Positions 641 to 21,200 of a DNA stretch of 64,000 nucleotides are shown here, one piece after another (position 1 is the stretch's first letter; the number at the start of each line of letters is the position of its first letter). The DNA is from a virus. The DNA is taken from the IMG/VR virus record IMGVR_UViG_3300044974_001280, positions 1 to 64,000 of that record; one strand, 5' to 3'. The position numbers were made by a program, and so were the translations under genes. The notes beneath the pieces are model-generated. The model had not been told where the DNA came from. It saw nothing but the letters and a program-made list of their open reading frames with translations, and searched no databases.

Positions 641-3600
641 GTGAATCTTTAACTATCAACGATAACATAGATAATTATGTTTTAACAGCAACGGGTTTAA
701 CTAATGTAATTCAAGGAGAATCCTTGTTAACATTTGATGGTTCACTACCATCTCCCTTTTTGAACGTAAATGGTGTACACGTTGGCCCAGGTGGTGGTAA
801 TTGTTCAACTAATATCGCTATTGGTGAGTGTTCTCTCTCAAGTAACACTACAGGAATTAAAAATGTTGCCGTCGGATTTGGAAGCCTTTATTCGAGTTCT
901 TTCGGAATTGCCAATGTTGCGGTAGGTTACACTGCCCTCTATAATTTTACATACCCTTCTGATTCTTCGACTGCTTCTTTGGCCGTTGGTTACAAAGCTC
1001 TTTGTTCTTCTACAAATGGTAGAAGTAACACTGCGGTTGGCACCAGATCTATGTTGTCAAATTCAACAGGAGAACGTAATACTGCTTTGGGGTCTGATTC
1101 CCTAATAAGTAACTTAACCGGGTGCTTTAACACAGCCGTAGGTTTTAAAAGTTTGTATAGCAACCTAGGAGGATCTGCTAATATAGCCATTGGTAATCAA
1201 TCTCAATATTCTAACATAAGCGGAAGCTCTAATGTTGCTATTGGCAATTCAGCTTTGTCTTCGAATGCCGGAAATGCTAATGTTGCTATCGGTCAATCCG
1301 CTTTATGCTCGCAGAATTTTGCCTCCGCCTCAAACACCGCCAATGTTGCAGTTGGATATTTTGCCATGGCCTTTAATACAACGGGAAGTGGTAACGTCGC
1401 CTTAGGTACCAGAGCTCTGTTGTGTAATACGACTGGAAATTTTAATACTGCGGTAGGAATCTCTGCTTTAGCAGCAAACAACACTGGTAAATACAACACA
1501 GCCTTGGGCAGATATTCTCTTCGGTGTAATACCTCAGGAAATTTCAATACAGCAGTAGGTTTAAATGCTCTTTTTGCTAACACAACAGGCGCAAGCAACA
1601 CCGCAGTAGGTATCAGTGCTCTTCGATGTAACACAATAGGCACATGCAACACCGCACTAGGTACATCTGCTCTTTATGATAACACAACAGGCTCAGACAA
1701 CACCGCAGTAGGTACAAATTCTCTTCGATTTAACACAACAGGCACAAACAACACCGCAGTAGGTACAAATTCTCTTCGATGTAACACAATAGGTATAAAC
1801 AACATCGCAGTAGGTTCAAGTGCTCTTTGTTTAAACACAACAGGCGTAAACAACACCGCAGTAGGTTATAATGCTCTTCGATGTAACACTTCTGGTTCTA
1901 GCAACACTGCAATAGGGACCAATTCTCTTTTGGTTAATGTAACCGGAAACTCCAACACAGCTCAAGGTTTTTATTCTCTAAGATCCAATACCACAGGGGG
2001 TAATAATACTGCAGTAGGAGCTAGCTCTCTTAGATGTAACATAACAGGAAAATATAACGTAGCAATTGGATCAGGTTCTCTTTGTTGTAATTTAACAACA
2101 AACGGGAGTGTTGCAATAGGTGTAAATGCTCTAAACTTAAACCTAGTTTCTTATAATACCGCCGTAGGTGCTTTTTCACAAAGGTGCACCTCTACAGGTA
2201 CGGAAAATGTTTCTGTAGGATCAAGCACTTTGTTCAATAACACGACTGGTTCAGGTAACACCGCAGTAGGTACAAATTCATTGTGTTCAAATGTATCCGG
2301 TTCAAACAACGTAGCAGTAGGTAGATCTTCTTTATTAACAAATACTACCGGCGGATTTAACACTGCTATTGGATTTGATGCATTAAGAAGTCAGAATTTT
2401 GGTTCAACCTCTACAACTGCCAATGTAGCAGTTGGTTATGGGGCGTTAAAAACAAATTCTACAGGCACAAATAATACAGCTATAGGTACACGTTCGCTGG
2501 AACAAAATGATGCTAATTTTAATACTGCGATAGGTGCATCCGCTCTTCGATGTAACACAACAGGAATACAAAATGTTGCTGTTGGGGCAGGTGTATTGCT
2601 TGTTAACACGGGAGGATGTAATAACTCTGCTGTGGGTTTCTATGCTCTAAGATCAAATACAACAGGAGCCCTTAACACCGCAGTAGGTCAACGTGCTCTT
2701 TATTGTAACACAACAGGCTTAAATAACACCGCAGTAGGTAGCTCTTCTTTATTAACAAATACTACCGGCGGATTTAACACTGCTATTGGATTCCATGCAT
2801 TAAGAAGTCAAAATTTTGGTTCAACCTCTACAACTGCCAATGTAGCAGTTGGTTACAGAGCTTTAACAGTTAATACCACTGGTTGTTGCAATACAGCCTT
2901 AGGTAATAGATCTTTTCAAGCTAATACAATTGGAAACACTAATGTGGCCGTAGGATCTGATAGTTTATTTTCCAGCGTTTCAGCTAACAATAATGTGGCA
3001 GTGGGTATCAATACCCTCCGTAGTAATCTATCGAACGGTAACTTGGTTGCCGTAGGAGCAAATGCCCTTTGTTGTAATTGTGCTGCTAATAATGTGGCCG
3101 TTGGAGCTTTTGCTATGAGATATACCACAACAGGAACAGGGGTAGCTATTGGGTTCCAGGCACTAAGAGATAATGTAACTGGTGCCAATAATGTTGCTAT
3201 CGGTGCTAACGCGATGCGAGATAACAAAGGAGCTAATAATAACGTAGCAGTTGGATATCAAGCTCTCTTTTGCACAACGGGTTCTTCGAACGTTGCACTT
3301 GGCTTTTGTTCTCTAAGAAATAACCAAATCGGGGTCCACAATGTAGGAATAGGCTGCAATGTACAACTTCAAAATATATCAGGAGATAGAAATATAGCTG
3401 TAGGTACACTATCTCTTTCTTGTAATACCACCGGTAACTCGAATGTGGCAATAGGCTATCAATCTTTAAGAAATTCAAACTTCGGTTCCATCTCCACTAC
3501 TGCCAACGTGGCCGTGGGTTACTGCTCATTGGCATGTAATTGTATCGGAAATTCTAATGTAGCAGTTGGAACGAGAACTCTTATTAGCAATCAAACAGGT

Positions 3601-4942: not shown

Positions 4943-5599
4943 GTGAAAAAAGTACTCATCGGAACCCCATCCTACGACGGTCGAATTGACACCTGGTTTG
5001 CAGATTCTCTAGTAAGAACTATTAAACAGGCAGACCCCAAACTGATAAACATTCACGCCATTTATCCTTCATATGATTCTCTGGTCCAAAGGGCTAGAAA
5101 CGATCTGGTCAGAATGGCAATGGATGGTGGCTATGACACCCTCTTTTTTATTGATTCCGATGTGGAGTGGGAACCCGAATGGTTTTTTAGATTTTTGGCC
5201 AGACCTGAACCGATCGTGGGAGCAGCCTTGATCAAAAAATCTGATCAAGAGTCCTATACGGTCAAGATCATAAAAAAGAATCTGACCAAATCCGAGGATG
5301 ATGTATTAGTTCAGGTAGATGGTTTAGGAACAGGTTTTCTAAAGGTGGACCGATTTGCCTTGGAAAAACTCTGGTTGATGAGTGAACCTTACGTCCACGA
5401 CGGAGTTCCCAATCGGATGGTTTTTGATTTGAAGATTGTGGATGGTGATTTGATCTCCGAGGATTACGTCATGTGCCACAAATGGCAAAGTTTAGGCTAC
5501 AAAGTGTGGCTGGATCCTAGCATCACCATCAATCACAACGGGGTGAAAAAATATCAAGGCAACTTGTCCTCCTTCCTTCAAAGAAATGGCTATGTTTGA
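4943..5599 (+). CDS. GT-A fold glycosyltransferase
   Basis: This 218-residue protein resembles GT-A (GT2-like) glycosyltransferases. The N-terminus MKKVLIGTPSYDGR is a typical first strand of the nucleotide-binding fold, and FFIDSDVEW at about residues 68-76 supplies the D-x-D metal and nucleotide-sugar motif. The sequence DGLGTGFLKV at about 127-136 fits the acceptor side. Translation starts at a GTG 65 bases after the fibre gene without a clear Shine-Dalgarno sequence. The end overlaps the next glycosyltransferase by 14 bases, implying translational coupling. It probably acts in the cytoplasm on a fibre or glycan acceptor; donor sugar and acceptor cannot be read from sequence. Confidence 0.75.
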   Translation: MKKVLIGTPSYDGRIDTWFADSLVRTIKQADPKLINIHAIYPSYDSLVQRARNDLVRMAMDGGYDTLFFIDSDVEWEPEWFFRFLARPEPIVGAALIKKSDQESYTVKIIKKNLTKSEDDVLVQVDGLGTGFLKVDRFALEKLWLMSEPYVHDGVPNRMVFDLKIVDGDLISEDYVMCHKWQSLGYKVWLDPSITINHNGVKKYQGNLSSFLQRNGYV

Positions 5600-6512
5600 A
5601 AAACCTATGGGTGGCACCGAACTGATGTTCGAAGAATTGAAAAGAAGATTACCTGATTCTGTTTGGGGTAATTACTCCATTTTTAATTATCTTCCCCAAG
5701 CTGATTTTACCAAAAAGACTATTTACTGGAATCAGCTTTCCTGGGATCAACAGGCGGTTCAATTTCTAAAGGATCGGGATCTGGTGGAAAAAATAGATCA
5801 TTTCGTCTTCGTCAGCCACTGGCAGGCGGAGCAATTCAGACAGAGGTACAATATTCCTGGTTATAAGACCCATGTCCTAAAGAATGCCTCTCTCGGAGTG
5901 GAAACCAGACCTGTAGGTCCCCGATCTATCGTCAAATTGTGTTACACTTCCACCCCTTGGAGAGGACTAAATGTTCTTCTGCGAGCCTGGGAAATACTTC
6001 AGCCCCAGAATTGTGAACTCCACGTCTTTTCTTCCTGCCACATTTACGGTCCAGAATTCGGTAAATCTGATGCCCAATACGCAACCTTATACGAAAAGTG
6101 CCGAACCACTCCTGGTATAGTTTATAGGGGCTCTATTCCCAATCCACAGCTAAGAGGGGAGTTACCGAATTTCGATCTGTTGGCCTACCCCTGTACCTTC
6201 GAGGAAACCTCCTGTATCGCCGTCATTGAATCTCTATCCGCCGGTTTAAGGGTTGTTTGTTCCAACCTGGGTGCCCTGCCTGAAACAACAGAGGGCTGGG
6301 CTCGGCTGTACCCTTATCTCATGGATCCCGAAACCCACGCCCGCAGATTTTCAAAAATTCTGAGTTCAGAAATAGAAAAGGTCAGAGACGGCGGTTGGGA
6401 TTCTTCTTTACAAGCTGTCCATTATTCTCGGGGTTGGAGTTGGGACGAGAGAATAAAAGAATGGGTCGATTTTTTTCATCAATTGGCGAATGAACTGGAC
6501 GAAAATTTTTGA
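5586..6512 (+). CDS. GT4-family glycosyltransferase (GT-B fold)
   Basis: This is a 308-residue GT-B glycosyltransferase lacking part of the usual N-terminal domain. VFVSHWQAEQF at about 73-83, the C-terminal domain starting near IVKLCYTSTPWRG, and EETSCIAVIE near 206-215 (the E-x7-E nucleotide-sugar signature of GT4) support the family. It overlaps the upstream GT-A gene by 14 bases and the downstream methyltransferase by 23 bases, so all three are likely one translational unit. A second ATG lies two codons in. At ~310 residues it is shorter than typical ~370-residue GT4 enzymes, as often seen in phages. Confidence 0.8.
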   Translation: MAMFEKPMGGTELMFEELKRRLPDSVWGNYSIFNYLPQADFTKKTIYWNQLSWDQQAVQFLKDRDLVEKIDHFVFVSHWQAEQFRQRYNIPGYKTHVLKNASLGVETRPVGPRSIVKLCYTSTPWRGLNVLLRAWEILQPQNCELHVFSSCHIYGPEFGKSDAQYATLYEKCRTTPGIVYRGSIPNPQLRGELPNFDLLAYPCTFEETSCIAVIESLSAGLRVVCSNLGALPETTEGWARLYPYLMDPETHARRFSKILSSEIEKVRDGGWDSSLQAVHYSRGWSWDERIKEWVDFFHQLANELDENF

Positions 6513-7104
6513 AAAAATTCAACCTCAGACCTTTTTGGACATTGGAGCCAACGAAGGTAATTTTACCTCTACCCTTTTAAAATTTTATCCTGACTGCAAG
6601 TGTCTGATGGTAGAGCCCAACCCAGCTTGCCGTCCCTTCTTAGTTTCGATCGGTCACCCTTTTGAGATCGTTGCTGTTTCTGGCTCTAACGGTAAGGGTC
6701 TTCTTCATGTTGAAAACTCTAACTCTTTGGCAACAGGTGCTTCTTTGTACAAAGAAAACACTCAATTTTATGCCCCAGGAAAATCACACCAGACAGAAGT
6801 TCAATTGATTACCTTGGATTCTTTGAACCCTTTTCCTAACACCGAGATAGATCTCATTAAGATTGACACACAAGGGTCTGAATTGGACATTTTAAAGGGC
6901 GGGAAACTAACGATTCAACGCACAAAATTTCTCTTGCTGGAAGTATCTCTCTTAGAATATAATTTAAATGCTCCTTTGATAGATGAAGTTCTTGATTGGA
7001 CTTCTGCACACAATTTTAACTTATGTGAGATTGTAAATTATCACCGGCTAGCTAATAATCAAATATTTCAGCTAGATGTTTTATTGATGAGATCTAGCAT
7101 CTGA
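6490..7104 (+). CDS. FkbM-family methyltransferase
   Basis: This 204-residue protein has the class I SAM-binding motif FLDIGANEGNFTSTLL near residues 15-30 and the FkbM signature IDLIKIDTQGSELDILKGG near 117-135. FkbM enzymes O-methylate sugars and related hydroxyls. It starts inside the end of the GT4 gene. In this island it most likely caps or modifies the glycan. A fragment of a second methyltransferase-like frame follows at 7116-7286. Confidence 0.82.
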   Translation: MNWTKIFEKIQPQTFLDIGANEGNFTSTLLKFYPDCKCLMVEPNPACRPFLVSIGHPFEIVAVSGSNGKGLLHVENSNSLATGASLYKENTQFYAPGKSHQTEVQLITLDSLNPFPNTEIDLIKIDTQGSELDILKGGKLTIQRTKFLLLEVSLLEYNLNAPLIDEVLDWTSAHNFNLCEIVNYHRLANNQIFQLDVLLMRSSI

Positions 7105-7115
7105 CCTGATATCTT

Positions 7116-7286
7116 GTGATTTACAATTTTAAATATTCCAACTACAATTCAAGGGGAGCAGTAATTGACTATCTAAAAGAAAACAATTTCGGCCGATCTA
7201 TAGACGTTGGAGCTTCCATGAATGGCTGGTCAAAAGATTTCACGACTCATTATGATGTATCCTGGTAAATGATGATTTAGATTAAG
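7116..7286 (+). pseudogene. Possible truncated methyltransferase remnant
   Basis: A 56-codon frame opening with GTG at 7116 encodes a protein containing RSIDVGASMNGWSKDF, which looks like SAM-binding motif I of a methyltransferase and then stops at 7284-7286. No downstream motifs follow, and a late promoter for the next gene begins within 20 bases. I read it as the decayed 5' end of a second methyltransferase gene in the island. A real small gene cannot be excluded. Confidence 0.4.
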
Positions 7287-7304
7287 AAACAATTCTAATT
7301 TTTG

Positions 7305-7312
7305 ATATATAG
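7305..7312 (+). promoter_or_regulatory. Late promoter element (GATATATA)
   Basis: This octamer resembles the T4 late -10 box TATAAATA. It ends 15 bases before the ATG at 7328. It is flanked by a weak imperfect dyad (ATTTTTG and CAAAAT). Confidence 0.6.
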
Positions 7313-7327
7313 TAACAAAATAATCTT

Positions 7328-7684
7328 ATGGCAAATACACTTTTGTTTGGAAAAATAAGTCCTGTTTTGAGTGTACCACAACAAGCAAATCAATTCAGTC
7401 AAAATATCACTTTTTTAACGGCCGATTATATGGCCGCTATCGCTGATCCATATCCTCTCGGAGCGACACAAGTCAACTTTTCTGTCCTATACGGTAACTG
7501 TCAGTTCAATGAATCTAACGAAATTATAGGATTTACGACCCTCTCTAGATCTGGGATCAATCTATCAGGTTCAGTGATCCAAAGCTGGGGTGTTGATGAC
7601 AAGGTTGTTCTAAATGCTATTGCATCTGCTCAAGGAACATCTATAGTTTCGACCCAAATTGGAACAGTGGATTCTTTTTTCTAG
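7328..7684 (+). CDS. Hypothetical small protein with its own late promoter
   Basis: The 118-residue product is unrecognised. It begins MANTLLFGKISPVL and is rich in Ser, Thr, Asn and Gln with alternating hydrophobics, suggesting a soluble beta-rich virion or fibre-associated protein. There is no signal peptide or membrane segment. A GATATATA late promoter element ends 15 bases before the ATG, so it is expressed with structural genes even though it sits inside the glycan island. A fibre accessory or tip protein is possible but unproven. Confidence 0.6.
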   Translation: MANTLLFGKISPVLSVPQQANQFSQNITFLTADYMAAIADPYPLGATQVNFSVLYGNCQFNESNEIIGFTTLSRSGINLSGSVIQSWGVDDKVVLNAIASAQGTSIVSTQIGTVDSFF

Positions 7685-7704
7685 TTTTTTTAAATTTCTG
7701 ACCT

Positions 7705-8526
7705 TTGGTTCAAAAAATCTTTTACAACAGTTCAATGCCCAGAGCAGGGTCTACTCTGATCCAAAATATACTGGGTCAGAATCCTCTTATTTACCCAACT
7801 CCAACCTCTGGTGTTTTCGAGATGCTCGCCGGGGCTAGAACAATTTTCACAGATGGTATAGAATTTAAAGCTCAATCGGAACAGGAAATGCTGGAGGGGT
7901 TTAAAGGATTCTTGAAAGGGGGACTTTATGGATTCTATAACAATATTACAGATAAACCTTACGTGATGGAAAAGTGTCGGGGCTGGAATTCGGAATGGGA
8001 GTTTGTGAATGCCTTCGATCCCAATCCAAAGATGATCTGTATGATTAGGGATATTAGGGCGGTCTATGCTTCTTTAGAAAAGAAATTCAGACAACATCCC
8101 CTTTTGGATCATCATCTAGCCAACTGGGGTAATTTGTCTGGAACTACCACCGATAAAAGGATCCAGGTTTGGTCGACTTCTCCGCCTATTGGTCCTTCCA
8201 TGGATAGAATCTACCAAGTTTTGGTCCAAGGGTTGCACGAAAAAATTCTGTTTGTTAAATTTGAAGATCTCTGTCGGGATCCAGAGTTTCAGATGAAAAG
8301 AATTTATGAATATCTCGATCTTGAATTTTTTCATCATGATTTTTACAACATTCCACAAATAACCAAAGAAGACGACCGGTGGTACGGTATTTTTGGAGAT
8401 CACGTCATTAGAAAGGAATTAAAGCCAGTGAGGGATGATTTCAGAGAAGTTTTAGGAACTAATGCCTGTAAATTAATTGAGGACAGCTATGCCTGGTTTT
8501 TTAACGATTTCGAATATCAAAGATGA
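7705..8526 (+). CDS. Sulfotransferase (PAPS-dependent family)
   Basis: This is a 273-residue sulfotransferase-like protein. MPRAGSTLIQNIL near residues 11-23 matches the 5'-phosphosulfate-binding loop, and MIRDIRAVYASLEKK near 113-127 matches the 3'-phosphate-binding segment. The C-terminal half has the usual KFEDLCRDPEFQMKRIYEYL helix region. A TTG start at 7705 is chosen because the first beta strand (KIFYNSS) precedes the only nearby ATG at 7735. It would transfer sulfate from PAPS to a hydroxyl, probably of a sugar given the neighbours. An APS kinase gene two genes downstream could supply PAPS. Confidence 0.78.
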   Translation: MVQKIFYNSSMPRAGSTLIQNILGQNPLIYPTPTSGVFEMLAGARTIFTDGIEFKAQSEQEMLEGFKGFLKGGLYGFYNNITDKPYVMEKCRGWNSEWEFVNAFDPNPKMICMIRDIRAVYASLEKKFRQHPLLDHHLANWGNLSGTTTDKRIQVWSTSPPIGPSMDRIYQVLVQGLHEKILFVKFEDLCRDPEFQMKRIYEYLDLEFFHHDFYNIPQITKEDDRWYGIFGDHVIRKELKPVRDDFREVLGTNACKLIEDSYAWFFNDFEYQR

Positions 8527-9542
8527 AGGTAGGATATAAAACTTCTTCTGAAATCCAGATCTCTCCCGAGCAAAAAGGAGAGATGAATTTACCCAAAGCG
8601 ACTGCCCGTAATTCAGACACAATAGTATCAATAATCACACAACAACAACAGTCCATGGAACATAAATATTTAGTTTGGCACATCGAAGGAGGTTTGGGTA
8701 AAAATGTTGCGGCTACTTCTCTTCTTTTACCCCTGGTAGAGAGATATCCCGAGAGAAAAATAATTGTGGTGGCTTCTTACCCTGAGGTTTTTTTAAACAA
8801 TCCGAACATCTATCGAGTTTATCGAGTTGGTATGACACCGTATTTTTATGACGATTACATTTTGGGTAAGGACACTTTAGTTTTTCGGCAAGAGCCTTAT
8901 TTTCAAAGCGGGCATATTCTGAAACAGAAACATCTGATTCAAAATTGGGCGGATCTTCTAGGATTAGATCTGGTTCAAAATCCTCTGCCTGATTTGAGAT
9001 TTAATATGGTTCAAAGCCAATTAACGAGCAATTGGAAAAGGGAAAGACCCATCTGTCTTATTCAAACAAACGGAGGACCCTTAGAAAATCAAGCCTACAC
9101 CTATGCCTGGACCCGAGATATTCCTATCGATTGGGCAATCTATCTGGCCAACAAGCTTTCCGACGTGTACCACATCATACAGGTCACTAGACCAGGTTCT
9201 CCTCAAATTCCCGGAGCTGAAGTGATTACTTCTCACTTGACCTCCTCTGATCTTTTTTCGCTCCTCAAAATGTCGGAAAAAAGAATTCTGATCGATTCTT
9301 GTCTCCAGCACGCCGCGGCAGCCTTCGGACTTCATGCTTTTGTTTTTTGGATAGGAACATCACCTGAGAACTTTGGTTACGGCTTGCATACTAACATCAA
9401 AGCCCTCCCACCTACAGGACAAACAAAGATGGTGGACTCTTATCTCTTCGATTATTCTTTTGACGGCGTTCTACACGAATGCCCCTATCAAAACGTGAAT
9501 GATATGTTTGATCCCACCCACTTAGAACAGATCTTTGTATGA
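8523..9542 (+). CDS. GT9-like (heptosyltransferase-type) glycosyltransferase
   Basis: This 339-residue protein carries a GT9-like pattern. YLVWHIEGGLGKNVAATSL near residues 49-67 matches the N-terminal nucleotide-binding loop, and IDSCLQHAAAAFGLHAFVFW near 259-278 matches the C-terminal donor-binding segment of ADP-heptose:LPS heptosyltransferases. The first ~44 residues are low-complexity and atypical. An in-frame ATG at 8655 (MEHKYLVWH) would give a 295-residue protein starting at the conserved strand and may be the true start. The annotated ATG overlaps the sulfotransferase stop. Heptose or another ADP/GDP sugar is the likely donor by family resemblance only. Confidence 0.65.
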   Translation: MKVGYKTSSEIQISPEQKGEMNLPKATARNSDTIVSIITQQQQSMEHKYLVWHIEGGLGKNVAATSLLLPLVERYPERKIIVVASYPEVFLNNPNIYRVYRVGMTPYFYDDYILGKDTLVFRQEPYFQSGHILKQKHLIQNWADLLGLDLVQNPLPDLRFNMVQSQLTSNWKRERPICLIQTNGGPLENQAYTYAWTRDIPIDWAIYLANKLSDVYHIIQVTRPGSPQIPGAEVITSHLTSSDLFSLLKMSEKRILIDSCLQHAAAAFGLHAFVFWIGTSPENFGYGLHTNIKALPPTGQTKMVDSYLFDYSFDGVLHECPYQNVNDMFDPTHLEQIFV

Positions 9543-10000
9543 TCTATTGGTTTACCGGTCAGCCGGGGGCTGGAAAAACAACCCTGGCCAAAGCTTTGAA
9601 GGAGACTTTGGAAATGCAAAACTCGAAAGAGGTAATGCACATTGATGGGGATGATATTCGATCCATCTTTAACAACACAGATTACAGCAGAGCTGGACGA
9701 GAAAAAAACATTCAATTAGCTCAACAGATTTCTCATTTTTTATCTATCAAGGGTCTGGATGTTGTGGTTAGTCTGGTGTCACCTTATTTGGAACAGAGAG
9801 AAGAGTTCAAAAAAAGGATGGGCTCCTCCTTGCAAGAAATTTACGTGCACACAACTGAAATCAGAGGCAGAGAAAAATTCCACGTCGAAGACTACGAAAA
9901 ACCTGAAACTAATTTTATTGAAGTAGATACTACTAATACTTCTATCATCTCAAGTCTAAATCAATTCTATGACCAAAAAATTTTCCCTTTTCATCGGTAG
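9539..10000 (+). CDS. cysC: Adenylylsulfate (APS) kinase, CysC-like
   Basis: This 153-residue P-loop kinase begins MIYWFTGQPGAGKTTLAKAL, with Walker A at residues 7-14. HIDGDDIRSIFN near 34-45 matches the APS-kinase DGDxxR signature, and VVVSLVSPYLEQRE near 75-88 matches the ISPxxxxR-type region. The late FHVEDYEKPETNFIEVDT segment also fits CysC. The enzyme phosphorylates APS to PAPS, the donor for the sulfotransferase at 7705. Length is somewhat below the usual ~200 residues. It overlaps both neighbours, so it is part of one operon. A related but different small-molecule kinase is the main alternative. Confidence 0.75.
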   Translation: MIYWFTGQPGAGKTTLAKALKETLEMQNSKEVMHIDGDDIRSIFNNTDYSRAGREKNIQLAQQISHFLSIKGLDVVVSLVSPYLEQREEFKKRMGSSLQEIYVHTTEIRGREKFHVEDYEKPETNFIEVDTTNTSIISSLNQFYDQKIFPFHR

Positions 10001-10325
10001 GTGGCAGCCTTTACACGAGGGACATAAACATATTTTTAATGAGAGATTAAAATTAGGTAAGAATGTCTGGATAGCTATTCGAGATGTTACGCCCGATGAA
10101 AACCAACCCTGGACTGCTTCAGAAATCAAAGACAATATAGAAAAAATTTACTCTCGGGAAATCTCGGAGGGAAGGATTATTGTTACCATAGTTCCTGATA
10201 TTGAATCTATTAACTATGGTAGAGGAGTAGGCTATGAGATTATAGAACACGTGGTCCCAGCTGAAATTGCTTCTATTTCTGCTACCAGCATCAGAGAACA
10301 GATGAGAAAAGAAGGAACTTTATAG
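9969..10325 (+). CDS. HIGH-motif nucleotidyltransferase (NadM/cytidylyltransferase-like)
   Basis: This 118-residue protein has FIGRWQPLHEGHKHIF near residues 8-23, the G-R-x-Q-P-x-H-x-G-H nucleotide-binding motif of NMN-adenylyltransferase-like and cytidylyltransferase enzymes. SISATSIREQMRK near its C-terminus is the matching ISxTxIR motif. It overlaps the APS kinase by 32 bases. It would transfer AMP or CMP to a phosphorylated substrate. In context it could make APS, a nucleotide-activated sugar such as ADP-heptose, or NAD. The sequence does not decide between these, and it is not a canonical ATP sulfurylase. Confidence 0.65.
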   Translation: MTKKFSLFIGRWQPLHEGHKHIFNERLKLGKNVWIAIRDVTPDENQPWTASEIKDNIEKIYSREISEGRIIVTIVPDIESINYGRGVGYEIIEHVVPAEIASISATSIREQMRKEGTL

Positions 10326-10334
10326 ATATAAAAC

Positions 10335-10607
10335 ATGAACCAAGAATCTAAACTAACACCAGAAGAGTTAGAAAAAATCATCACTCTTAGAGACAGCATT
10401 AGAACCAATGTTGAAAAAATTGGCAAGATGAACATCCAAAAATACTTCCTTCAAAAGGAACTGGATTTTGTCAATGAACAATTGTCTGCCCTTTATGACG
10501 AAAGCATGACCCTGTCAGAGCAGGAAAAGGCATCGATTCAAGAAATTGTTACAAAATACGGCGAGGGTCAATTAGATTTCTCAACAGGAGTTTACTCTAA
10601 GTCATAA
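10335..10607 (+). CDS. Hypothetical small helical protein
   Basis: The 90-residue product starts MNQESKLTPEELEKI and is predicted almost wholly alpha-helical and charged, with a heptad-like pattern (KIGKMNIQKYFLQKELDFV). It lies 9 bases after the nucleotidyltransferase and 2 bases before a glycosyltransferase, hence is cotranscribed with the island. A GATATAAA sequence immediately upstream is a weak late promoter variant. No family is recognised; a small coiled-coil adaptor is possible. Confidence 0.6.
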   Translation: MNQESKLTPEELEKIITLRDSIRTNVEKIGKMNIQKYFLQKELDFVNEQLSALYDESMTLSEQEKASIQEIVTKYGEGQLDFSTGVYSKS

Positions 10608-10609
10608 AG

Positions 10610-11674
10610 ATGACTCCAGTAGAGGTTCTCAGAAGTACCAAAAGGCATCTATTAAAATCCCTGTGGGAAGTTCAAAAGGCACTGGATGAAGCTACCAATT
10701 CACAATTGAGAATTCTTTACGTGGCCCCTCATCTTTCTACAGGAGGTATGCCACAGTACCTATATAAACTCATTGAAATTTTCAATACCCAGGCGGATGT
10801 TTACTGTTTAGAATACAGCAACATCTCTGACGAGTACGTCGTGCAAAGAAACAAAATTCAAAAATTACTAGGCAGCAGATATTACCGGATAGACGATCAC
10901 GAGGACAAGAGTCAGTTTTTGCAAATTCTAGACGAGATCTGTCCAGATGTCATTCATTTTCAAGATTTTGTAGAATTCTTTTTGGATAGGAAAATCTGCG
11001 AACACGTCTATGCCTACAATCGGCCCTGGTACATCATGGAAACCCCTCACTCTTCGGCCAATGTACCGAGTGACAAATATTGGTTACCTGACAAACTAGT
11101 TATGGTCAATCAGTGGATGGCGGATAAATTTTCCGACTGTGGCATTCCGACCGATGTTTTAGAATACCCTATTGAGCATTTTGAAAGAAGAATCTCCCGA
11201 TCAGAAGCCCAAGGAATCCTGGGTTTAGACCCTGGAAAGAAACACGTTATCAATGTCGGTCTTTTCACTCCGGGAAAAAATCAAGGTGAACTGATATCCT
11301 TTGCTAGCCAGATGTTGGATTTGCCCGTTGAGTTTCATTTCATCGGCAACACGGCAGTTAATTTTCAAGAATATTGGCAGCCTCTCGTTTCAAATCTTCC
11401 TGAAAACTGTCGTGTGTGGGGAGAAAGAGGGGACGCCGAAATTTTTTATCAAGCGGCAGATCTGTTTGTTTTTAATTCAACTTGGGAACTGAATCCAATT
11501 GTTATTAAAGAATGTCTTTCTTGGCAACTTCCGATCCTCATGAGACGTCTGACCTCATACGGTGATTTCTACGACACTGATCCCTTAGTAACTTATTTAG
11601 AAGAAGGAACTACAGGCTTGGATTTTGAAACAAATCTTGATAGACTAAAAAATTTAGTGCAGCCAGAATCATGA
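10610..11674 (+). CDS. GT4-family glycosyltransferase (GT-B fold)
   Basis: A 354-residue GT-B enzyme. After a 30-residue helical lead, LRILYVAPHLSTGGMPQYL near residues 33-51 is the N-terminal nucleotide-fold entry with the G-G loop of GT4 enzymes. INVGLFTPGKNQGELI near 204-219 opens the donor domain, and ELNPIVIKE near 293-301 is the E-x7-E donor motif. It starts 2 bases after the preceding small gene and overlaps the heptosyltransferase gene by 4 bases. Acceptor and donor are unknown. Confidence 0.8.
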   Translation: MTPVEVLRSTKRHLLKSLWEVQKALDEATNSQLRILYVAPHLSTGGMPQYLYKLIEIFNTQADVYCLEYSNISDEYVVQRNKIQKLLGSRYYRIDDHEDKSQFLQILDEICPDVIHFQDFVEFFLDRKICEHVYAYNRPWYIMETPHSSANVPSDKYWLPDKLVMVNQWMADKFSDCGIPTDVLEYPIEHFERRISRSEAQGILGLDPGKKHVINVGLFTPGKNQGELISFASQMLDLPVEFHFIGNTAVNFQEYWQPLVSNLPENCRVWGERGDAEIFYQAADLFVFNSTWELNPIVIKECLSWQLPILMRRLTSYGDFYDTDPLVTYLEEGTTGLDFETNLDRLKNLVQPES

Positions 11675-12855
11675 AAAACAGAGGTATCAAAGTTTACACC
11701 GAGGTAATCAGACAGAAAAAATCCAGAGTTCCTGATCAAACGGGTTTTGTATTCACCTTTGATTATGGACCAAAAGTGGTGATGAGTGGTAATAATCCAG
11801 AGCTCAAAAGAACCGTTAAGTTTTGGGACAAAAAAAATTCTAAATACGAGTATATTGGTGAAATACAGCCTGGTCTTTTTACAACTTTGTTTAGAAAATG
11901 GTATACCCCCTGGGTAGCTGAAATTTTTGATGGAGAAGAAAAGATTTGGTCGTATGATTTCGAGGAAAATCTCAAGGGCCAAAAAATTTTAGTATCTATT
12001 GACAGTGCCTCTATAGGAGATACTCTAGCCTGGATGCCTGTTATAGCTAAATTTGGTCAAAAGCACGAAGCTGAACTACTGGTCAGTACTTTTTGGAATC
12101 CTCTTCTATCTAATTTTTTTGAGAGCATTCAATTCGTAAATCCTGGCTATCGTCATCCCTCCATTCACAGCATTTTCGGAATTGGTTGGTACGAGGAGGA
12201 CGATAGATACAAACACCCCAGAGATCCAAGAACCATTTCTCTCCAGCACGTGGCTTCGGATCTTCTAGGGATCGAAGAGACCTCAGAATTGCTGATGCCT
12301 AACATCTCAGCCCAACTGGGATCTCAGCCTCGTCCTATCGAAGAAAAATATGTTTGTATAGCAACTGAATCGACAGCTAACGCAAAACATTGGCACTATC
12401 CTGGAGGATGGCAAGAGATAGTTAATTATTTAAGAGAACTCGGTTACAAGGTTGTAGTAATTCATGAACAAGCCAACAGATTAGAAAATGTAGAGGATCG
12501 CACTGGTTCAATTGATCTTTGGGAAAGAATGGTAATGCTGCATCACGCAGAGTTTTTTATTGGGATAGGGTCTGGAATTTCTTGGTTGTCCTGGGCGGTG
12601 AACGTTCCTGTCGTCATGATCTCTGGATTTTCTCTCCCTTTTTGTGAATTTTCCACCCGAAATTATCGGGTGATAAATCCCCATGTGTGTCACGGATGTT
12701 TCAACGATCCAAGATTTAAATTCGATAAAGGAGACTGGAACTGGTGTCCTAAATTAAAAAACACGGAGAGAATTTTTGAGTGTACGCGTCAGATCACTCC
12801 TGGAATGGTTAAAGAGGCCATTCACAATCTAATTCAAGATATTTCTCAGGGCTAA
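11671..12855 (+). CDS. Autotransporter strand-loop-strand O-heptosyltransferase (TibC/Aah-like)
   Basis: This 394-residue protein matches the BAHT family, which O-glycosylates Ser in beta-solenoid autotransporters. Evidence includes SIDSASIGDTLAWMPVIAKF near residues 110-129, VSTFWNPLLSNFF, ATESTANAKHWHYPGGWQEI near 230-249, and GIGSGISWLSWA near 292-303. A four-Cys cluster (CHGC, then WCP and FEC) near 337-370 resembles the iron finger of TibC. The first ~90 residues form the extra N-terminal beta domain typical of this family. The gene ends the island and overlaps the GT4 gene. The obvious candidate substrate in the window is the repeat fibre at 1-4878. Homologues use ADP-heptose. Confidence 0.82.
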   Translation: MKNRGIKVYTEVIRQKKSRVPDQTGFVFTFDYGPKVVMSGNNPELKRTVKFWDKKNSKYEYIGEIQPGLFTTLFRKWYTPWVAEIFDGEEKIWSYDFEENLKGQKILVSIDSASIGDTLAWMPVIAKFGQKHEAELLVSTFWNPLLSNFFESIQFVNPGYRHPSIHSIFGIGWYEEDDRYKHPRDPRTISLQHVASDLLGIEETSELLMPNISAQLGSQPRPIEEKYVCIATESTANAKHWHYPGGWQEIVNYLRELGYKVVVIHEQANRLENVEDRTGSIDLWERMVMLHHAEFFIGIGSGISWLSWAVNVPVVMISGFSLPFCEFSTRNYRVINPHVCHGCFNDPRFKFDKGDWNWCPKLKNTERIFECTRQITPGMVKEAIHNLIQDISQG

Positions 12856-12903: not shown

Positions 12904-15453
12904 ATGTCCATTGTTCCTCCTAATAAAGCTCCCTTTGAAGGTTTACCTGTCTACAATGGCAATGGCAAACAATTAAACATTACTGACCCCAGATATGCAT
13001 ATCAGGATAATCTCCCTAACACGGAGAAGGTAGTAGATTCTAGTACCAATAACCTTTACAGCACAATCGATGCAGCTACGGCTAGAGCCATTCAGATAGG
13101 ATGTAACGGACACCACGTTGTTTTAGGCAGCGATGGTGTTTATTACTATGCTCCCTGTGCTACTGAAACCTGGTTGGTAGAAAGACTTGAACAATTAGAC
13201 AGTGCTCTCAACTTCACCTATATTGGAAACTATCGGGTTTTAAGCTGGGATGCTCCTTTCTATTATGTCAATTCTTTTGATGGCTGGATCATAGATACGG
13301 CGGGTGCTGTTAATGCCTATCCCATTAACTTGGATACAGTCTCCAATGCACAGATCACCAATGACATTGCTATAGATTTTAGATATTCGGTGGACGGAGA
13401 GACATGGTCCTTGTGGGTACCAGTTGGAACAGCACTGACCGGTTACAATAAATCTTCCACTTCGGGGGAAAAAGCCGAGATTTTTTCCATTCCTCTTAAT
13501 CCAACTAAACCTTTCTATCCAGAATTTAGATTTACTTCGGTGGTGGTAAATCAGGATGGCACTATTGCCTATTCCACCGATCAGCCAATCGATCCCAGTG
13601 TAGTAATAGTTTCTTTTGATCTTGATTTGACATATAATACCAATGTAGTGGATGGACCTGATAAGTTGGTGATCCGCAATCCTGTCCCTCAATGTTCTCC
13701 CGAAAAATCAAATCGGCCAGTTGTTTTTAACGAATGTGGTCCCTTCACTTTTCAGCCCTACAACATTAACAAGGCGATCAATTTGTATCAGGATTTGAGC
13801 TTAATAGTCAACCGGATGTTTGGTTTTGAAACTAATTACTATTCGGTGCAACCACAGTCTAGATCCAAGGACGTTATTCTTAAGGAATGGACTTTATTTG
13901 ATGTGGTAGAGGAAAAATGTGTCAAGGTCATGGTTCCCCAGAATCAGTTCCCAGACAATAAGGTGAACTACGATCCCTTTGGTATTTCTTTTGAAGAGCC
14001 CTTTGAAGTTCATATCGACAAAATTTATTTCGAATCCCTTTTCGGAAGAGGATCCCAGCCCCGAAAGAGGGACATCATTTATTTTCCTTTAACCAATAGG
14101 ATCTATGAAATAAACTCAACCTACCTGTTCAGAGATTTCATGTACTCCCCTGTTTATTTCAAATTGGAACTCAAAAAGTACAACCCAAAATCAAATACTT
14201 ATTTCAGAGATCCTGCCTACAAGGAAGAACTGGATGGTATAGCGATCAACTCCCAAGAGCTTTTCGGTCAAGAAACAACCTCGCAAGAAGAACAGATCAC
14301 AAAACCTCAACAGTACGTCACAACCACCAATGAAAGGGGTATAGATCCAACTCGGGGTTATGTCTATCAGAATTTACCTATCATCAACTACGAATTGAAC
14401 AACAACTGGACCATTATTTTAAACCAGTATTACGACCTGAACGATGCCTTTTTGACGGACAGCAATTTTCAATTCGAACCCAACAAATACCGCAATGCGG
14501 TCAGATACAGAGTTGCTCCAAAACTGGATTCAAACGGAGAAATTGCTTATTCTTCTTGGTTTAGCCTCAAAAATTACGTCAACGAGAATTCATTGACTAA
14601 AAAACCATTCCCCCCGTTGGCAATGGTGAAAGAAGGTGAAACCGAGTCTAGAATAGTTTACAATACCTATCCCTACAAACACGGCTTGAGCGTCTGGAGA
14701 GGATTCGATTCTAACCCGGAGGGCTATGTGGCCATTAAATCTGATGCCAACCACAGTGGAGGATTTATGGTCTCTTCGGTCATAGATCCGTATAAATTTT
14801 CAGTGGTTAATCCCAATACTCCTTTCTCTCAGGGAACAACCCCTCTCAAAATGCAGAAGGCACAGGCCCGAAATTTAATTTCGGCAGATCTCATCAATAG
14901 TATAGGTCAACTAGAGGGTTTTAGGATCGACCTGATCCATTCGGGAGTTCAGGAACCTGGTAACACCAATTTCATTCAAGAAGGGTCGATTCAGATTTAT
15001 CTCAATTCTTTAACCTATAATTCCAAACTCCAATTCGTTCCCCAACTGGGAGACTGGTACGGGGTAGTAGTGAATATTTCTAATAAGTACCAACAAATGT
15101 CTATCAACATTTGGGGCTTATCCTATGATCCCAATAATCCACAAGAACAAACTTCTGAATTAATCCCTCTCCATCAGGATTTTGTGGCTTTAACCCAAAC
15201 CTACACCTTCGATTTACCCAGACAAATAGTAGAAGATGTAGCAAATCCTCTTTATGGCACCAATAATAACAGTTATCGTATTTACACCTCTCCGCTGTTG
15301 TTAAGCAACATCAGAATTTTCAATTCCATGATCGATATAGATAAACAATCGATTGTCCTGAACCAGAATGTGGTCAGAGATTCTCAGTTAGCCCAGATCA
15401 TCGACAACGCCAAACCAACCTTAGCTATTCCTAAAATTTTGAGAAAGGGGTAG
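12904..15453 (+). CDS. Large virion structural protein, neck/baseplate type (contains gp14-like segment)
   Basis: This 849-residue protein has no signal or membrane segment. A central region around residues 340-430, including RKRDIIYFPLTNRIYEIN, resembles the segment of T4-like neck protein gp14 and baseplate proteins that reads D-x-I-Y-F-P near the middle. The rest, rich in Asn, Tyr and Pro, looks beta-structured; a C-terminal domain near 680-800 resembles a concanavalin-like fold by hydrophobic pattern only. It has its own late promoter 29 bases upstream and precedes the terminase genes, where T4 places genes 13-15. Structural role is likely; exact identity is uncertain. Confidence 0.55.
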   Translation: MSIVPPNKAPFEGLPVYNGNGKQLNITDPRYAYQDNLPNTEKVVDSSTNNLYSTIDAATARAIQIGCNGHHVVLGSDGVYYYAPCATETWLVERLEQLDSALNFTYIGNYRVLSWDAPFYYVNSFDGWIIDTAGAVNAYPINLDTVSNAQITNDIAIDFRYSVDGETWSLWVPVGTALTGYNKSSTSGEKAEIFSIPLNPTKPFYPEFRFTSVVVNQDGTIAYSTDQPIDPSVVIVSFDLDLTYNTNVVDGPDKLVIRNPVPQCSPEKSNRPVVFNECGPFTFQPYNINKAINLYQDLSLIVNRMFGFETNYYSVQPQSRSKDVILKEWTLFDVVEEKCVKVMVPQNQFPDNKVNYDPFGISFEEPFEVHIDKIYFESLFGRGSQPRKRDIIYFPLTNRIYEINSTYLFRDFMYSPVYFKLELKKYNPKSNTYFRDPAYKEELDGIAINSQELFGQETTSQEEQITKPQQYVTTTNERGIDPTRGYVYQNLPIINYELNNNWTIILNQYYDLNDAFLTDSNFQFEPNKYRNAVRYRVAPKLDSNGEIAYSSWFSLKNYVNENSLTKKPFPPLAMVKEGETESRIVYNTYPYKHGLSVWRGFDSNPEGYVAIKSDANHSGGFMVSSVIDPYKFSVVNPNTPFSQGTTPLKMQKAQARNLISADLINSIGQLEGFRIDLIHSGVQEPGNTNFIQEGSIQIYLNSLTYNSKLQFVPQLGDWYGVVVNISNKYQQMSINIWGLSYDPNNPQEQTSELIPLHQDFVALTQTYTFDLPRQIVEDVANPLYGTNNNSYRIYTSPLLLSNIRIFNSMIDIDKQSIVLNQNVVRDSQLAQIIDNAKPTLAIPKILRKG

Positions 15454-16408: not shown

Positions 16409-18202
16409 ATGAAAGAACAAGTAGTAGAAAGAGATTCAAATTATTGGAGTACTCAGAAAATTCAAGAACTACTCAGAAAAGGTGAGGAAGAAGGACTGGA
16501 TTATAAATCGGTTGACAACCCCTTTCACGAGGGTGAGACAGATCTTAAAAGAGCCAATCTGCTGTATGAATACACTCCAGAGGAAATAGTTGAAATTCAA
16601 AAGTGCGCCCAGGATTCTGTTTATTTTGCTAAATATTGTCAGGTCATGACTGACGACGGTCTCAGGAACATTGAATTGAGGGACTATCAGAAATCCATTT
16701 TAAGAGAGTATCAAAGACATCGTTTTTCAATTTTACTCGCACCACGTCAGATAGGTAAGAGCGTTACCAGTTCCATGATTTTAGTCTGGTATTTGCTCTT
16801 TAACCACGATAAAAACGCCATGATTTTGGCCAACGTGGGCTCGACTGCAGAAGAATTGATGGATAAAATTAAGGGCATAGTTAAAGGATTGCCTTGGTTT
16901 CTAAAACCGGGCATGGTTGTTAATAATGTCATGTCCATGAAATTCGACAATGGGTGCAGGGCTATAGCTAAAACAACCACTAAAACTTCTGCCATTGGAT
17001 TTACCATCCATTTTCTCTACATGGATGAGTTTGCCCACATTCACCCCAATTTCATTGAATCTTTCTTCAGATCGACCTACCCTACTGTTTCATCTTCTAA
17101 AGTCTCAAGAATTATTATTACTTCTACCCCTAATGGCATGAACAAATTCTATGATTTGTACCAAGGGGCTTTAACGGGGGAAAATTCCTTCAATCCTATA
17201 AGGGTTGATTGGTGGCAAGTACCCGGCAGGGATGAGGACTGGAAAAATCAAGAAATAGCCAATCTGGGCAGTGAAGAACTCTTCAACCAAGAATATGGCA
17301 ATCAATTTCTTAGCTCAACTACTCTTCTTCTCAGCTCGGCAGATTTAAGAAAAATGAAATCTAACGAGGCTGAATACACCTGGAGGGAAATAGATGCTTT
17401 GAGCGATCAGAAATTGAAATACCACAACTTCAGATGGCACCCTAAATTCCAGCTAGGAAGTGATTCTCTAGATGGAAAAAGCTTTGTTATTTCGGTCGAT
17501 TTGGCCTCGGGAAGCAGAGGTGACTACACTGTCGTCAACATCTTTAGGGTTGTACCTCTCCCCAAATCTTACATCGAAGAAATGTATGATTATAGCGATG
17601 AGGCTGATTTTTTCGGGCTTCTTCAGGTTGGCATCCTCAGAGACAATGAGATAGAGATAGAAGATTTTAAGAGAATGCTAGAGGCCTTAATTCTAAAGGT
17701 TTTCGACAGGGAAAGACTTACAGTTATCTTGGAAATGAATTTTAAAGGAGAATTGTTACTGGATAAACTCCTCCTTCACGATGACATTTCTCTGGATATA
17801 TTTTTACACACCAAACACACTGAATCTGCCAGAACTCCTAAGCCTGGTATTAAATACAATGAAAAAAACAAGCTCAAATACTGTGAAAGGTTGAGATACC
17901 TGGCCCGCAATAATAAAATCATCCTGAACGAAAAAAACTGGACCATCCCTGAAATGTTCTCTTTTGGTCTTAATACTACCGGTACTTATTCGAGCCAGTC
18001 AGGTCATGACGATGTGGCTATGTCGGTGGTAAATCTTTCGGGCCTGTTTGAAAGTACAGCTTTCCACGATTTAGTGGGTCAGATTTATGATGAGATAGAC
18101 GAAAATTACAAATCCCTAATCGACAAAAAACTCTCAGCCAAAATGGGGGAATTTGGAAGTAAGGAAAGCGATTTTTATTCTTCTTTCAGCAAGCTTCTTT
18201 AG
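16409..18202 (+). CDS. Terminase large subunit (gp17-like ATPase-nuclease)
   Basis: This 597-residue protein packages DNA through the portal. The ATPase domain has Walker A APRQIGKS at residues 111-118, Walker B FLYMDEFAH at 202-210 and coupling motif STPNG at 239-243. The C-terminal RNase H-like nuclease has VISVDLASGSRGDYTVV near 363-379 (first catalytic Asp), ILEMNFKGELLLDKL, and SGHDDVAMSV near 533-542 (late Asp pair). Length matches T4 gp17 (610). It partners with the small subunit upstream and docks on one of the two portal proteins encoded at 35507 and 37117. Confidence 0.95.
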   Translation: MKEQVVERDSNYWSTQKIQELLRKGEEEGLDYKSVDNPFHEGETDLKRANLLYEYTPEEIVEIQKCAQDSVYFAKYCQVMTDDGLRNIELRDYQKSILREYQRHRFSILLAPRQIGKSVTSSMILVWYLLFNHDKNAMILANVGSTAEELMDKIKGIVKGLPWFLKPGMVVNNVMSMKFDNGCRAIAKTTTKTSAIGFTIHFLYMDEFAHIHPNFIESFFRSTYPTVSSSKVSRIIITSTPNGMNKFYDLYQGALTGENSFNPIRVDWWQVPGRDEDWKNQEIANLGSEELFNQEYGNQFLSSTTLLLSSADLRKMKSNEAEYTWREIDALSDQKLKYHNFRWHPKFQLGSDSLDGKSFVISVDLASGSRGDYTVVNIFRVVPLPKSYIEEMYDYSDEADFFGLLQVGILRDNEIEIEDFKRMLEALILKVFDRERLTVILEMNFKGELLLDKLLLHDDISLDIFLHTKHTESARTPKPGIKYNEKNKLKYCERLRYLARNNKIILNEKNWTIPEMFSFGLNTTGTYSSQSGHDDVAMSVVNLSGLFESTAFHDLVGQIYDEIDENYKSLIDKKLSAKMGEFGSKESDFYSSFSKLL

Positions 18203-18235
18203 AATAAATAATTACAAAATTCCTGTTTTTTTGTG

Positions 18236-18243
18236 GATATATA
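18236..18243 (+). promoter_or_regulatory. Late promoter element (GATATATA) before the sheath gene
   Basis: This exact copy lies 26 bases before the ATG at 18270. GGATAT and ATATCC (18253-18258) form a 6-bp dyad overlapping it. Its position supports the 18270 start over the upstream extension. Confidence 0.7.
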
Positions 18244-18269
18244 AGCTGAAAAATATCCTCTGTAAAATA

Positions 18270-21200
18270 ATGGCAAAGAAAATAAAATTAGATCTCTCTC
18301 AATTCAAAGCTTCTGGTGTTTATACGCTGGAGTTTGATGCCTCCGAAAACGTCATTCTCACCTCCCAAACAATCAGGCTGGTGGTAGGATTTTCTAATAA
18401 AGGACCATTTAATGCTCCTGTTTACATTCCAGACATCACCACTGCTATAGCCATTTTTGGTGATATTGATAAGACTTTAGAAAGTCAAGGTTCTTATTTT
18501 CAAAGATCTATTTTTACTTGTCTGCAAACAGGTCCAGTTTTTGCCTTGAATCTATTAAAGCTAAACAATGATGAAGATAGTCCTACGGCAGATAAGGTAA
18601 ACTATTTTGGCTTTTCTGTTGCAACAGATGAACCTAATGGGGTTTTAACCTCTAGGCTCTATTCATCTTTCTACAATAAAGAAAGATTTTGGTACGCCGA
18701 TGTAGATTATTTCTTGGCAACAATGTCAATTCCTGATCAAGGTAGAATTTTTAATTTAGTGAATCTGGGTCAAGAGCCCATGAGCGTTATCGTCAGAAAA
18801 TCTACTGATGCTAACCCACCTTTACAAGGCTATGATGTTTTTGCCATCGATTGGTACGGAGCTGACAATGTTCCTAGCTACGTTCATCCTTATGACTACA
18901 TTTCAGATTGGTTCATAGATATTATTGCGGTGTCTGGTAACTGGACTGATTATGCATCTTTGTCACAAGACCCCGAATGGGCAGAATATTTTACTAGAAA
19001 TGGATTTGTTAAAAGTAAAATCAACCAATTCTTAAGCCAACAAAACGTTAATATCATTTCACAAACTACGGGCTGTTTGATCGTTGACTTTGTAGATCTG
19101 AATGGTAATAACCAATTCATCCAGACCCTAGTCAATAATAACACTCCTTCAACGGGTCTATTTTGTGCGGTTGACGCAGAAGCTTTGGATTATTTGTGTC
19201 AAAATAGGTTTAAAGTCGATTTAGTCGGTAATTTTTTAATTGATGAACTAACTGGTGACAGAGATCTTGAAGATCCAACTCTGAACTTTTTGAGCTACGA
19301 CCAGCAGCTCGTTCAAGATTACGTTTATACCCAAAATTACATAGGAATTACTGGTGCTGGTGGGGTAACAGGGGGAACAGCCGCTATTGCCTATTCGGGA
19401 TTGAACGTTGGTACTTTGCACAGAATAGATGGCGTAACAGGATCTTATGGTATTCCTGCCTCAGCTCTAGTTCCTTACAGTTCCACAGCTACTTTCGGGG
19501 GTCTACATTACGTTAGAACCAATTCGGGCGTGACGGGGGGTGCAGTTGTGAATGTTTATATTACCAACGGAGGTACCGGTTACACTAGTGCACCAACAGT
19601 CACTTTCTCTGGACCTGGAACTGGTGCTGCTGCCACTGCGGTCATAACTGGAGATGCGGTTTCTAGCATTACTTTAACAGCTAGCGGATCTGGATACACG
19701 TCCGCTCCTTCGGTCACTTTTTCGGGAGGCGGAGGCACGGGAGCGGCCGCTTCTGCAGATATCTTAACAGAACCTTCTTTGACCTCTGCTCAAAAAACTT
19801 TACTGAAAGATTTCTTGACCCCTTCTGCTACCAGTTCGCCTTTCATAGTAGGAACGGTCACTATTCCTGCGGGAGCATCGGGTAATGTCGTAAATCAGTT
19901 CTCTTCAGGGAATTTGGTTAAATTAAAAGTATCAGGTGTAGCTGAAACCTCTGGTGATTTAACTATCACCTTTACCCATCCATTGGACACCGGATTTTAT
20001 TCGGCTCAAGGAATTTCAGTTCAACCTACTTTCTTAACTGCCGGTATTACTGGAAGTTTTGTTAATGCCTTCTATCAGCAATTTGGAGCATCAGATTATT
20101 TAAATATAGATGCAATTGCTTCCGTCACAGGGGCAGCTCAAAGTAATACCCTCGTCGGACAAATTTCAACTAGTTTGTATCAAAATATTCAATACGATGA
20201 AATCCAAGACGGAGATACGGTTTGGTTGAACTCGGAGGGATCTTCTATTTACTACCTCGACACACAGTTAACTGTAGATAGAGATCAATACAACGTGGCT
20301 TACGTCAGGGCATTCGATAATATTGCCAGACAAAACCCTGACGATTTGGTGAATTATCCTCCCTTCGGTTCTGTTTATGCATCAGACAACATTGGAATTG
20401 GTGTTACTGCAGGTAAGACCGATATAGTTTCATCTGTTGCTTCCATAAATCAGTTTTTGGATGTAGTTCCTGGAGCTACAGGGTCCAGATCTAATCCCAA
20501 CACTTTTCTTTTTGCCCCAGATCAGGCGAACGATAAAATTATTTCAGTTGGAGATTTGCTGGTTTCTACTGATTTGGAACTCTGTGAAACTGTGGGGGCC
20601 AACCGACAGTCCAGACTAACCAAGGTCACTTCAGTGGCTCAGACGACAACTTCAGGGATAGTAAGAGTCACATGTTCCAGACCAATCTATTTCTATGCTG
20701 GAGACCCCGTCCAAGTACAAAAATTCAAATCGATCCCTCAATTTACTAGATCCTTCGATTTCATTTATTTACAGGGTTACACTATGAGAGATGCTCAGAG
20801 ACCTAACGGTTCTGATCTAAGGGTCAACGAAATTTTAGATGTCTTATACAACACGAACTTGGCTGCGACTCTTGCCACTAAAGACGTCATTTCATTCCGT
20901 TACATTGTCGATACCTTCAGCGGAACTATTCAGCCTAATTCTAAATTCCAGCTTTCAAAATTGGCAATGATGAGACAAAAAGCTTTGGCCTTCATCAATG
21001 CTCCTTCTATGGCTCAATTCAGAGCCAGTACGGATCCCAGATTTACTAATGCACCAACAGCAACAGATCCATTCCCTCCTTTGGAAGCCAGATATATCGC
21101 AGAGGGTGGAAATCTATCTTTAAATCCCTCCTACACCTTTAGCTTACCAACCCAAGATTTAGGAGCATCGTATGCTGCTTTCTACACTCCTTACATCACG

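Follow-up and report, generated by a model that had tools for sequence, protein, structure and literature searches.

A thumbless BAHT-type heptosyltransferase gene in a large phage, its association with collagen-like tracts, and a candidate role in tail fiber glycosylation

Introduction

The first 64 kb of the 230,445-base virus record IMGVR_UViG_3300044974_001280, referred to here as the window, encode at 11671-12855 (plus strand) a 394-residue protein that resembles the autotransporter-type heptosyltransferases of the BAHT family, which raises the question of what such an enzyme would modify in a phage and where its sugar donor would come from. A few pathogen adhesins are known to be O-heptosylated. 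An initial annotation of this DNA linked the gene to a kinase at 38753-39751 and proposed that the phage boosts an ADP-heptose supply for its own use; it named no acceptor, and the data presented here point to a collagen-like tail fiber in that role. We consider it reasonably probable that the phage adds sugars to its own collagen-like tail fiber, which is rich in Ser/Thr, and that the kinase raises the ADP-heptose supply. With slightly less assurance, we also favor the broader view that a widespread branch of TibC relatives, which lacks the TibC thumb and would need no dodecamer, forms an O-heptosylation system for collagen-like proteins, including phage tail fibers and lipoproteins of Gram-negative bacteria. 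Labels of the form L0xx to L2xx denote viral or genome loci that were fetched for comparison.

The window enzyme is a BAHT homologue without a thumb

The product of 11671-12855 matches TIGR04414, the model for AAH/TibC autotransporter O-heptosyltransferases, with 300 bits (E 1.8e-89), which passes the curated cut-off of 200 bits, and its alignment to TibC spans residues 28-391 (E 4e-64); no PHROG family matched this protein. Its AlphaFold model, with a predicted local distance difference test (pLDDT) score of 92.9, superposes on TibC with a Z score of 41.5 and a root mean square deviation of 1.9 over 359 residues (model residues 23-394 aligned) and has the TibC fold of an N-terminal beta-barrel and a GT-B-like catalytic domain. 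In TibC, as described by Yao et al. (PMC4358343), Asp110 is the catalytic base, Thr226, Lys230, Arg286, and Trp305 form the donor site, four cysteines make up an iron finger, and a beta-hairpin thumb carrying Phe265 and Val266 builds the dodecamer and is needed for activity. The catalytic and donor-site residues are kept in the aligned window protein as D117, T235, K239, R286, and W305, and the sequence retains all four finger cysteines (C340, C343, C359, and C371), for which iron binding is predicted. The family match, the TibC alignment, and these cysteines confirm the initial annotation of an autotransporter-type heptosyltransferase with a four-cysteine finger, and chance resemblance is excluded because of the E-values and the gene order conserved in relatives.

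The thumb, on the other hand, is missing: a gap at TibC 265-266 was found in the window protein and in all 40 aligned homologues (27 phage rows and 13 rows from genome contigs), and the few rows with approximately five extra residues at this position are still shorter than TibC. The four cysteines are present in 26 of the 27 phage rows; the exception, L171 (2918-4015), is a degenerate homologue that has lost all four and retains the catalytic Asp and Lys. At position 300, which in TibC sets the selectivity for D,D versus L,D (PMC4358343), the window protein has Gly, and several relatives have Ser. The adenine-contacting Arg286 is shared by the window clade and its gammaproteobacterial sister clade and is exchanged for Thr, Val, Leu, or Ile in several other branches. 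With regard to an autotransporter partner, a search of 34 records and genomes for the autotransporter target repeat TIGR04415 found none over the cut-off, with a single weak match of 17 bits and a positive Escherichia coli control. Its sequence family, fold, and active site thus make the window protein a BAHT homologue, and it falls outside the BAHT group in the strict sense; since both a thumb and an autotransporter partner were looked for and neither was found, we describe it as a BAHT-related, thumbless, collagen-linked variant. Another domain arrangement was seen in the isolated Microcystis phage Mel-JY01 (PP395634), where a BAHT-type domain forms the C-terminal end of a 3.7-kb gene (L106, 4750-8430) whose annotation is methyltransferase FkbM. 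This gene is located close to Gly-Ser/Thr tracts, and its BAHT-type domain has no counterpart of Arg286, so that the sugar it transfers may be other than heptose.

Collagen-like tracts accompany BAHT genes in phages and bacteria

The window opens inside a fiber gene whose reading frame runs uninterrupted from base 1 to 4878 (plus strand). The most N-terminal part present in the record is a collagen-like tract (1-648), the proposed acceptor, which comprises 216 codons or 72 triplets (53 GSS, 14 GTS, 4 GTR, and 1 GES); the fiber open reading frame (ORF) matches PF01391 (Collagen) with 102.6 bits (E 9.2e-30; cut-off 27.2). The remainder (649-4878), which PHROG matches class as tail spike or virion structural protein, consists of a brief linker and an extended, solenoid-like region with repeats of the NTTGxxNTAVGxxSL type. 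The fiber gene does not begin with the TTG at 724, as the frame is already open at the first base of the record, within the collagen-like repeat; the record probably ends there due to the repeat breaking the assembly.

Gly-Ser/Thr-Ser collagen-like tracts were identified by a repeat search beside BAHT loci. When each lineage was counted once, the fetched flanks contained a Ser/Thr-rich tract in 26 of the 44 phage BAHT lineages and in 3 of the 66 control lineages (Fisher p 1.6e-10), a ratio that is approximate because the controls, which were loci from other scans without a strong BAHT match, were somewhat shorter (mean 13.8 kb).

The strongest test of the association between collagen-like tracts and BAHT genes is provided by bacterial loci. 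A genome scan yielded 15 loci, three of which (L235, L238, and L239) look, by their neighboring ORFs, like phage contigs in genome bins and were set aside. All 12 remaining loci, which are chromosomal, have a Gly-Ser/Thr-X tract, located 14 to 1145 bases from the BAHT gene in 11 of them and 5.6 kb away in one, and the same pattern is otherwise absent or rare in these genomes (2.3 to 9.2 Mb); even when three tract sites were allowed per genome, a generous figure, the log10 probabilities added up to -31.7. A safe count is about three independent bacterial cases, which is still far from chance. The neighboring proteins match Pfam Collagen, with two of the six tested falling just below its cut-off, and several of them start like lipoproteins; Methylobacter luteus is one cultivable environmental bacterium with a BAHT gene beside the gene for a collagen-like protein. 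In some gammaproteobacterial genomes, DUF6502-type genes were also seen directly ahead of the BAHT gene (L226, 4958-5800; L232, 5012-5842).

A repetitive stretch lies directly ahead of the gene island in the window fiber and in L004, L006, and L035, and TibC acts on the beta-helix of TibA, its substrates being beta-helical (PMC4358343). The same enzyme and donor could hence modify the solenoid-like part of the fiber (the NTTGxxNTAVG repeats), with the collagen-like tract as a mere neighbor. We regard this as quite unlikely, as only a handful of BAHT loci yielded the solenoid repeat, whereas Gly-Ser/Thr tracts appear repeatedly in phages with other fibers and beside bacterial genes that have no solenoid.

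Gene order links the enzyme to virion genes and to a GT4 partner

In approximately 35 related loci, the order 90-residue ORF, GT4 gene, BAHT gene, neck gene, ORF, terminase gene, and sheath gene is kept as far as the contigs extend. In the window, all on the plus strand, the 90-residue ORF that precedes the pair is located at 10335-10607 (a Pfam search gave no match), the GT4 glycosyltransferase that is the constant partner of the BAHT gene at 10610-11674 (PF00534, 8.6e-9), and the conserved neck (head closure) gene that follows at 12904-15453 (PHROG head closure Hc2, 4e-7). The matches to GT4 and BAHT fall in a single ORF in more distant phages. The tail sheath encoded at 18153-21815 is unusually long (1220 residues), and its residues ~450-540 match other virion proteins in PHROGs. 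The record is that of a large phage with tail sheath, portal, and terminase genes, which were recognized by PHROG matches. The terminases nearest to its own, from huge phages, Sphingomonas phage PAU, Tenacibaculum phage PTm1, and Lak phages, share less than 40% identity with it.

Host envelopes are a common target of phage glycosyltransferases, and the fold of the window enzyme is also that of lipopolysaccharide (LPS) heptosyltransferases; the enzyme might accordingly modify the host surface, with LPS or an adhesin as its target, perhaps so as to keep other phages out. This we judge very unlikely given that the gene adjoins the neck, terminase, and sheath genes and follows the fiber gene, and that its homologues lie beside collagen-like genes.

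The genes upstream of the 90-residue ORF are mostly not conserved in the approximately 35 related loci and form a separate cassette that was found whole in other phages (L133, L181, L197, L198, and L209). The first part of this variable cassette (4943-8526, plus strand), whose gene set also occurs together in other phages, encodes a GT2-like protein (4943-5599), a second GT4 protein (5586-6512), an FkbM methyltransferase (6490-7104), a 118-residue ORF (7328-7684), and a sulfotransferase (7705-8526). These are followed, also on the plus strand, by a GT9-fold glycosyltransferase (8523-9542), a P-loop kinase similar to adenosine 5'-phosphosulfate (APS) kinases (9539-10000; PF01583, 2.2e-21), and a nucleotidyltransferase (9969-10325). 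The product of 8523-9542 had been called GT9-like, which sequence profiles did not support (no Pfam or NCBIfam match) and fold comparison did, as its AlphaFold model reached Z scores of 20.8 to the GT9 enzyme 3tov and 19.1 to WaaF (1psw). In several phages (L214-L224), a diverged BAHT-like protein (~110-126 bits) is encoded directly ahead of a GT9-fold protein. The sulfotransferase, GT9-fold, APS-kinase-like, and nucleotidyltransferase genes at 7705-10325 recur together in unrelated phages.

A heptose kinase suggests that the phage boosts one host step

The plus-strand gene at 38753-39751, located between the portal (37117-38742) and DNA ligase (39793-41130) genes, encodes a single-domain protein whose predicted activity is that of an HldE-type heptose-7-phosphate kinase. 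It matches PF00294 (PfkB) with 107 bits (cut-off 25.8), and its best model by far is TIGR02198 (rfaE_dom_I), at 303 bits, which is below the curated cut-off of 345; generic hexose-kinase models gave 58 bits or less. Its best solved relative is HldA (4e84), the RxSPEAPVPV segment of which is present along with a GAGD motif. These matches bear out the RfaE1/HldE kinase of the initial annotation. A kinase occupies the portal-ligase site in nearly all loci of the window phage clade, and a survey of 44 records, many of which are fragments, found 13 full-length kinases, 6 shortened ones, and none in 25; wherever a record with a full-length kinase has a known BAHT, that BAHT retains Arg286. Strict pairing of kinase and BAHT is ruled out by the many BAHT phages without a kinase. 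The shortened kinase-like genes at the same site in L126-L132 (frames of ~250-265 residues) keep the PEAPVPV segment.

The idea that the record encodes a complete ADP-heptose pathway was rejected, as its 230,445 bases yielded no match to an isomerase (GmhA, SIS_2), a phosphatase (GmhB), an epimerase, or the HldE adenylyltransferase (rfaE_dom_II, at E 0.1); the absence of the adenylyltransferase half of HldE had been noted initially and now extends to the whole record. ADP-heptose would therefore depend on the host. The HIGH-motif nucleotidyltransferase that had been noticed in the island is present as ORF 9969-10325, and the suggestion that it supplies the missing HldE half would make the phage's ADP-heptose supply its own. 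Such a supply has in its favor a real kinase, the co-occurrence of two heptose-linked genes, and cyanophage P-SSM2, in which a similar kinase, also with a PEAPVPV segment, adjoins nucleotidyltransferases and a phosphoheptose isomerase. We nevertheless hold it to be extremely improbable. The best matches of the 9969 product are nicotinamide mononucleotide (NMN) adenylyltransferases, an affinity to NAD enzymes that the initial annotation itself had named as evidence that would overturn its suggestion, and the product did not match rfaE_dom_II in the record-wide search at E 0.1. Moreover, among 80 viral loci with this gene, the APS-kinase-like partner was found in 76, a BAHT of the window type in 9, and a heptose kinase in none. 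Together, the NMN adenylyltransferase matches and the partner counts rule out the 9969 product as the HldE adenylyltransferase; since its partner is APS-kinase-like and never a heptose kinase, we assign it to another donor pathway, and the near-constant kinase-nucleotidyltransferase pair suggests an uncharacterized activated-donor pathway. A second CTP_transf_like match, near record position 128251, was also rejected as the HldE half; it belongs to a 649-residue protein (L104, 61-2010) with GRFQPFHLGH in its C-terminal part, the N-terminal part of which appears RNA-ligase-like by eye only. Ten neighbors scanned around the kinase of a 735-kb huge phage included no heptose gene cluster.

What stands of the proposed ADP-heptose boost is that two ADP-heptose-linked genes belong to the conserved set of the clade and that use on the phage's own protein is likely; the phage-own supply line does not stand, as the pathway is incomplete and the 9969 product is not the HldE half, and the data are better explained by a boost to a single host step. 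A further alternative is that the enzyme does glycosylate the collagen-like tract, with a donor other than ADP-heptose, and that the kinase serves another end such as host LPS. This would agree with the exchange of Arg286 for Thr, Val, Leu, or Ile elsewhere in the family, with the many BAHT phages without a kinase, and with the failure to find the other pathway genes in the record; we consider it unlikely for the window phage, whose clade keeps every TibC donor-site residue and has the full-length kinase.

Proposed mechanism and its weighing

Under the reading that we favor, in which the phage heptosylates its own collagen-like fiber, the 11671 enzyme would transfer heptose from ADP-heptose onto Ser/Thr hydroxyls of the Gly-Ser/Thr-Ser tract, both donor and acceptor being deduced from the evidence above. 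It would work as a finger-mediated back-to-back dimer rather than a dodecameric ring, because the TibC thumb is absent. The GT4 protein encoded at 10610 probably extends or completes the glycan, a role suggested by its constant adjacency and by the single-ORF arrangements. The HldE-type kinase encoded at 38753 would phosphorylate host-made heptose-7-phosphate and thereby direct more flux to ADP-heptose; the isomerase, phosphatase, and adenylyltransferase would be supplied by the host, given that their genes were not found in the record. The phage may benefit through hydration, stability, or shielding of the fiber.

A number of observations weigh against this reading. The tract in the window lies 11 kb away from the enzyme gene, the fetched flanks of 18 of the 44 phage BAHT lineages contain no Ser/Thr-rich tract, the pattern occurs nowhere in long records including the 319-kb L037 and the 636-kb LR756504, and three lineages have collagen-like tracts that are poor in Ser/Thr. 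The bacterial cases represent few independent clades, with those placed in the tree forming two clades and one single row. In the converse comparison, 16 of 369 genomes of one class match the tract pattern, approximately 8 of which were judged to have real Gly-Ser/Thr tracts, and only 2 of the genomes with a tract carry the enzyme, both already in the bacterial set; since tracts are also found without the enzyme, a collagen-like tract does not require it. On the donor side, the kinase was not found in many BAHT phages, and the donor could be another nucleotide sugar, considering that Arg286 is lost in several branches.

Comparison with known systems

A limited literature search found no evidently relevant report of a heptosyltransferase acting on a collagen-like substrate. 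If the proposal is true, O-heptosylation also coats the collagen-like tail fibers that large phages carry and the collagen-like lipoproteins on the surface of environmental bacteria, and the simpler enzyme would separate the parts of TibC that serve catalysis from those that serve the ring. The proposal further assigns a function that can be tested to a pair of genes that recurs in phages, suggests why a phage would carry a heptose kinase, and offers a possible tool for making glycosylated bacterial collagen.

Among known systems, TibC and AAH (PDB 4rap and 4rb4) share with the window enzyme the fold, the N-terminal barrel strands, the Asp/Thr/Lys/Arg/Trp donor site, and the four-cysteine finger. 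The window enzyme differs from them by the missing thumb and by Gly at position 300, where TibC has Pro; furthermore, enzymes of its type are phage-borne and lie beside a GT4 partner and a collagen-like gene, whereas the neighbor of TibC and AAH is an autotransporter. The N-terminal kinase of HldA/HldE (TIGR02198, PDB 4e84) resembles the window kinase over the whole kinase domain, including the PEAPVPV segment and the GAGD motif, while the phage protein is single-domain, approximately 30% identical, under the curated cut-off, and encoded between portal and ligase genes. Cyanophages such as P-SSM2 and S-T4 likewise carry a heptose-kinase-like gene, but theirs is clustered with phosphoheptose isomerase and nucleotidyltransferase genes, its product is only ~25-31% identical to the window kinase, and no BAHT match was found in these cyanophage records. 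With regard to the acceptor, the mimivirus L230 system (PMC9614988) and Bacillus BclA (PMC8968730) are precedents for viral or bacterial collagen-like proteins that carry sugars; L230 puts glucose on hydroxylysine by another kind of enzyme, and neither precedent involves a heptosyltransferase, as is proposed here for the fiber of the window phage.
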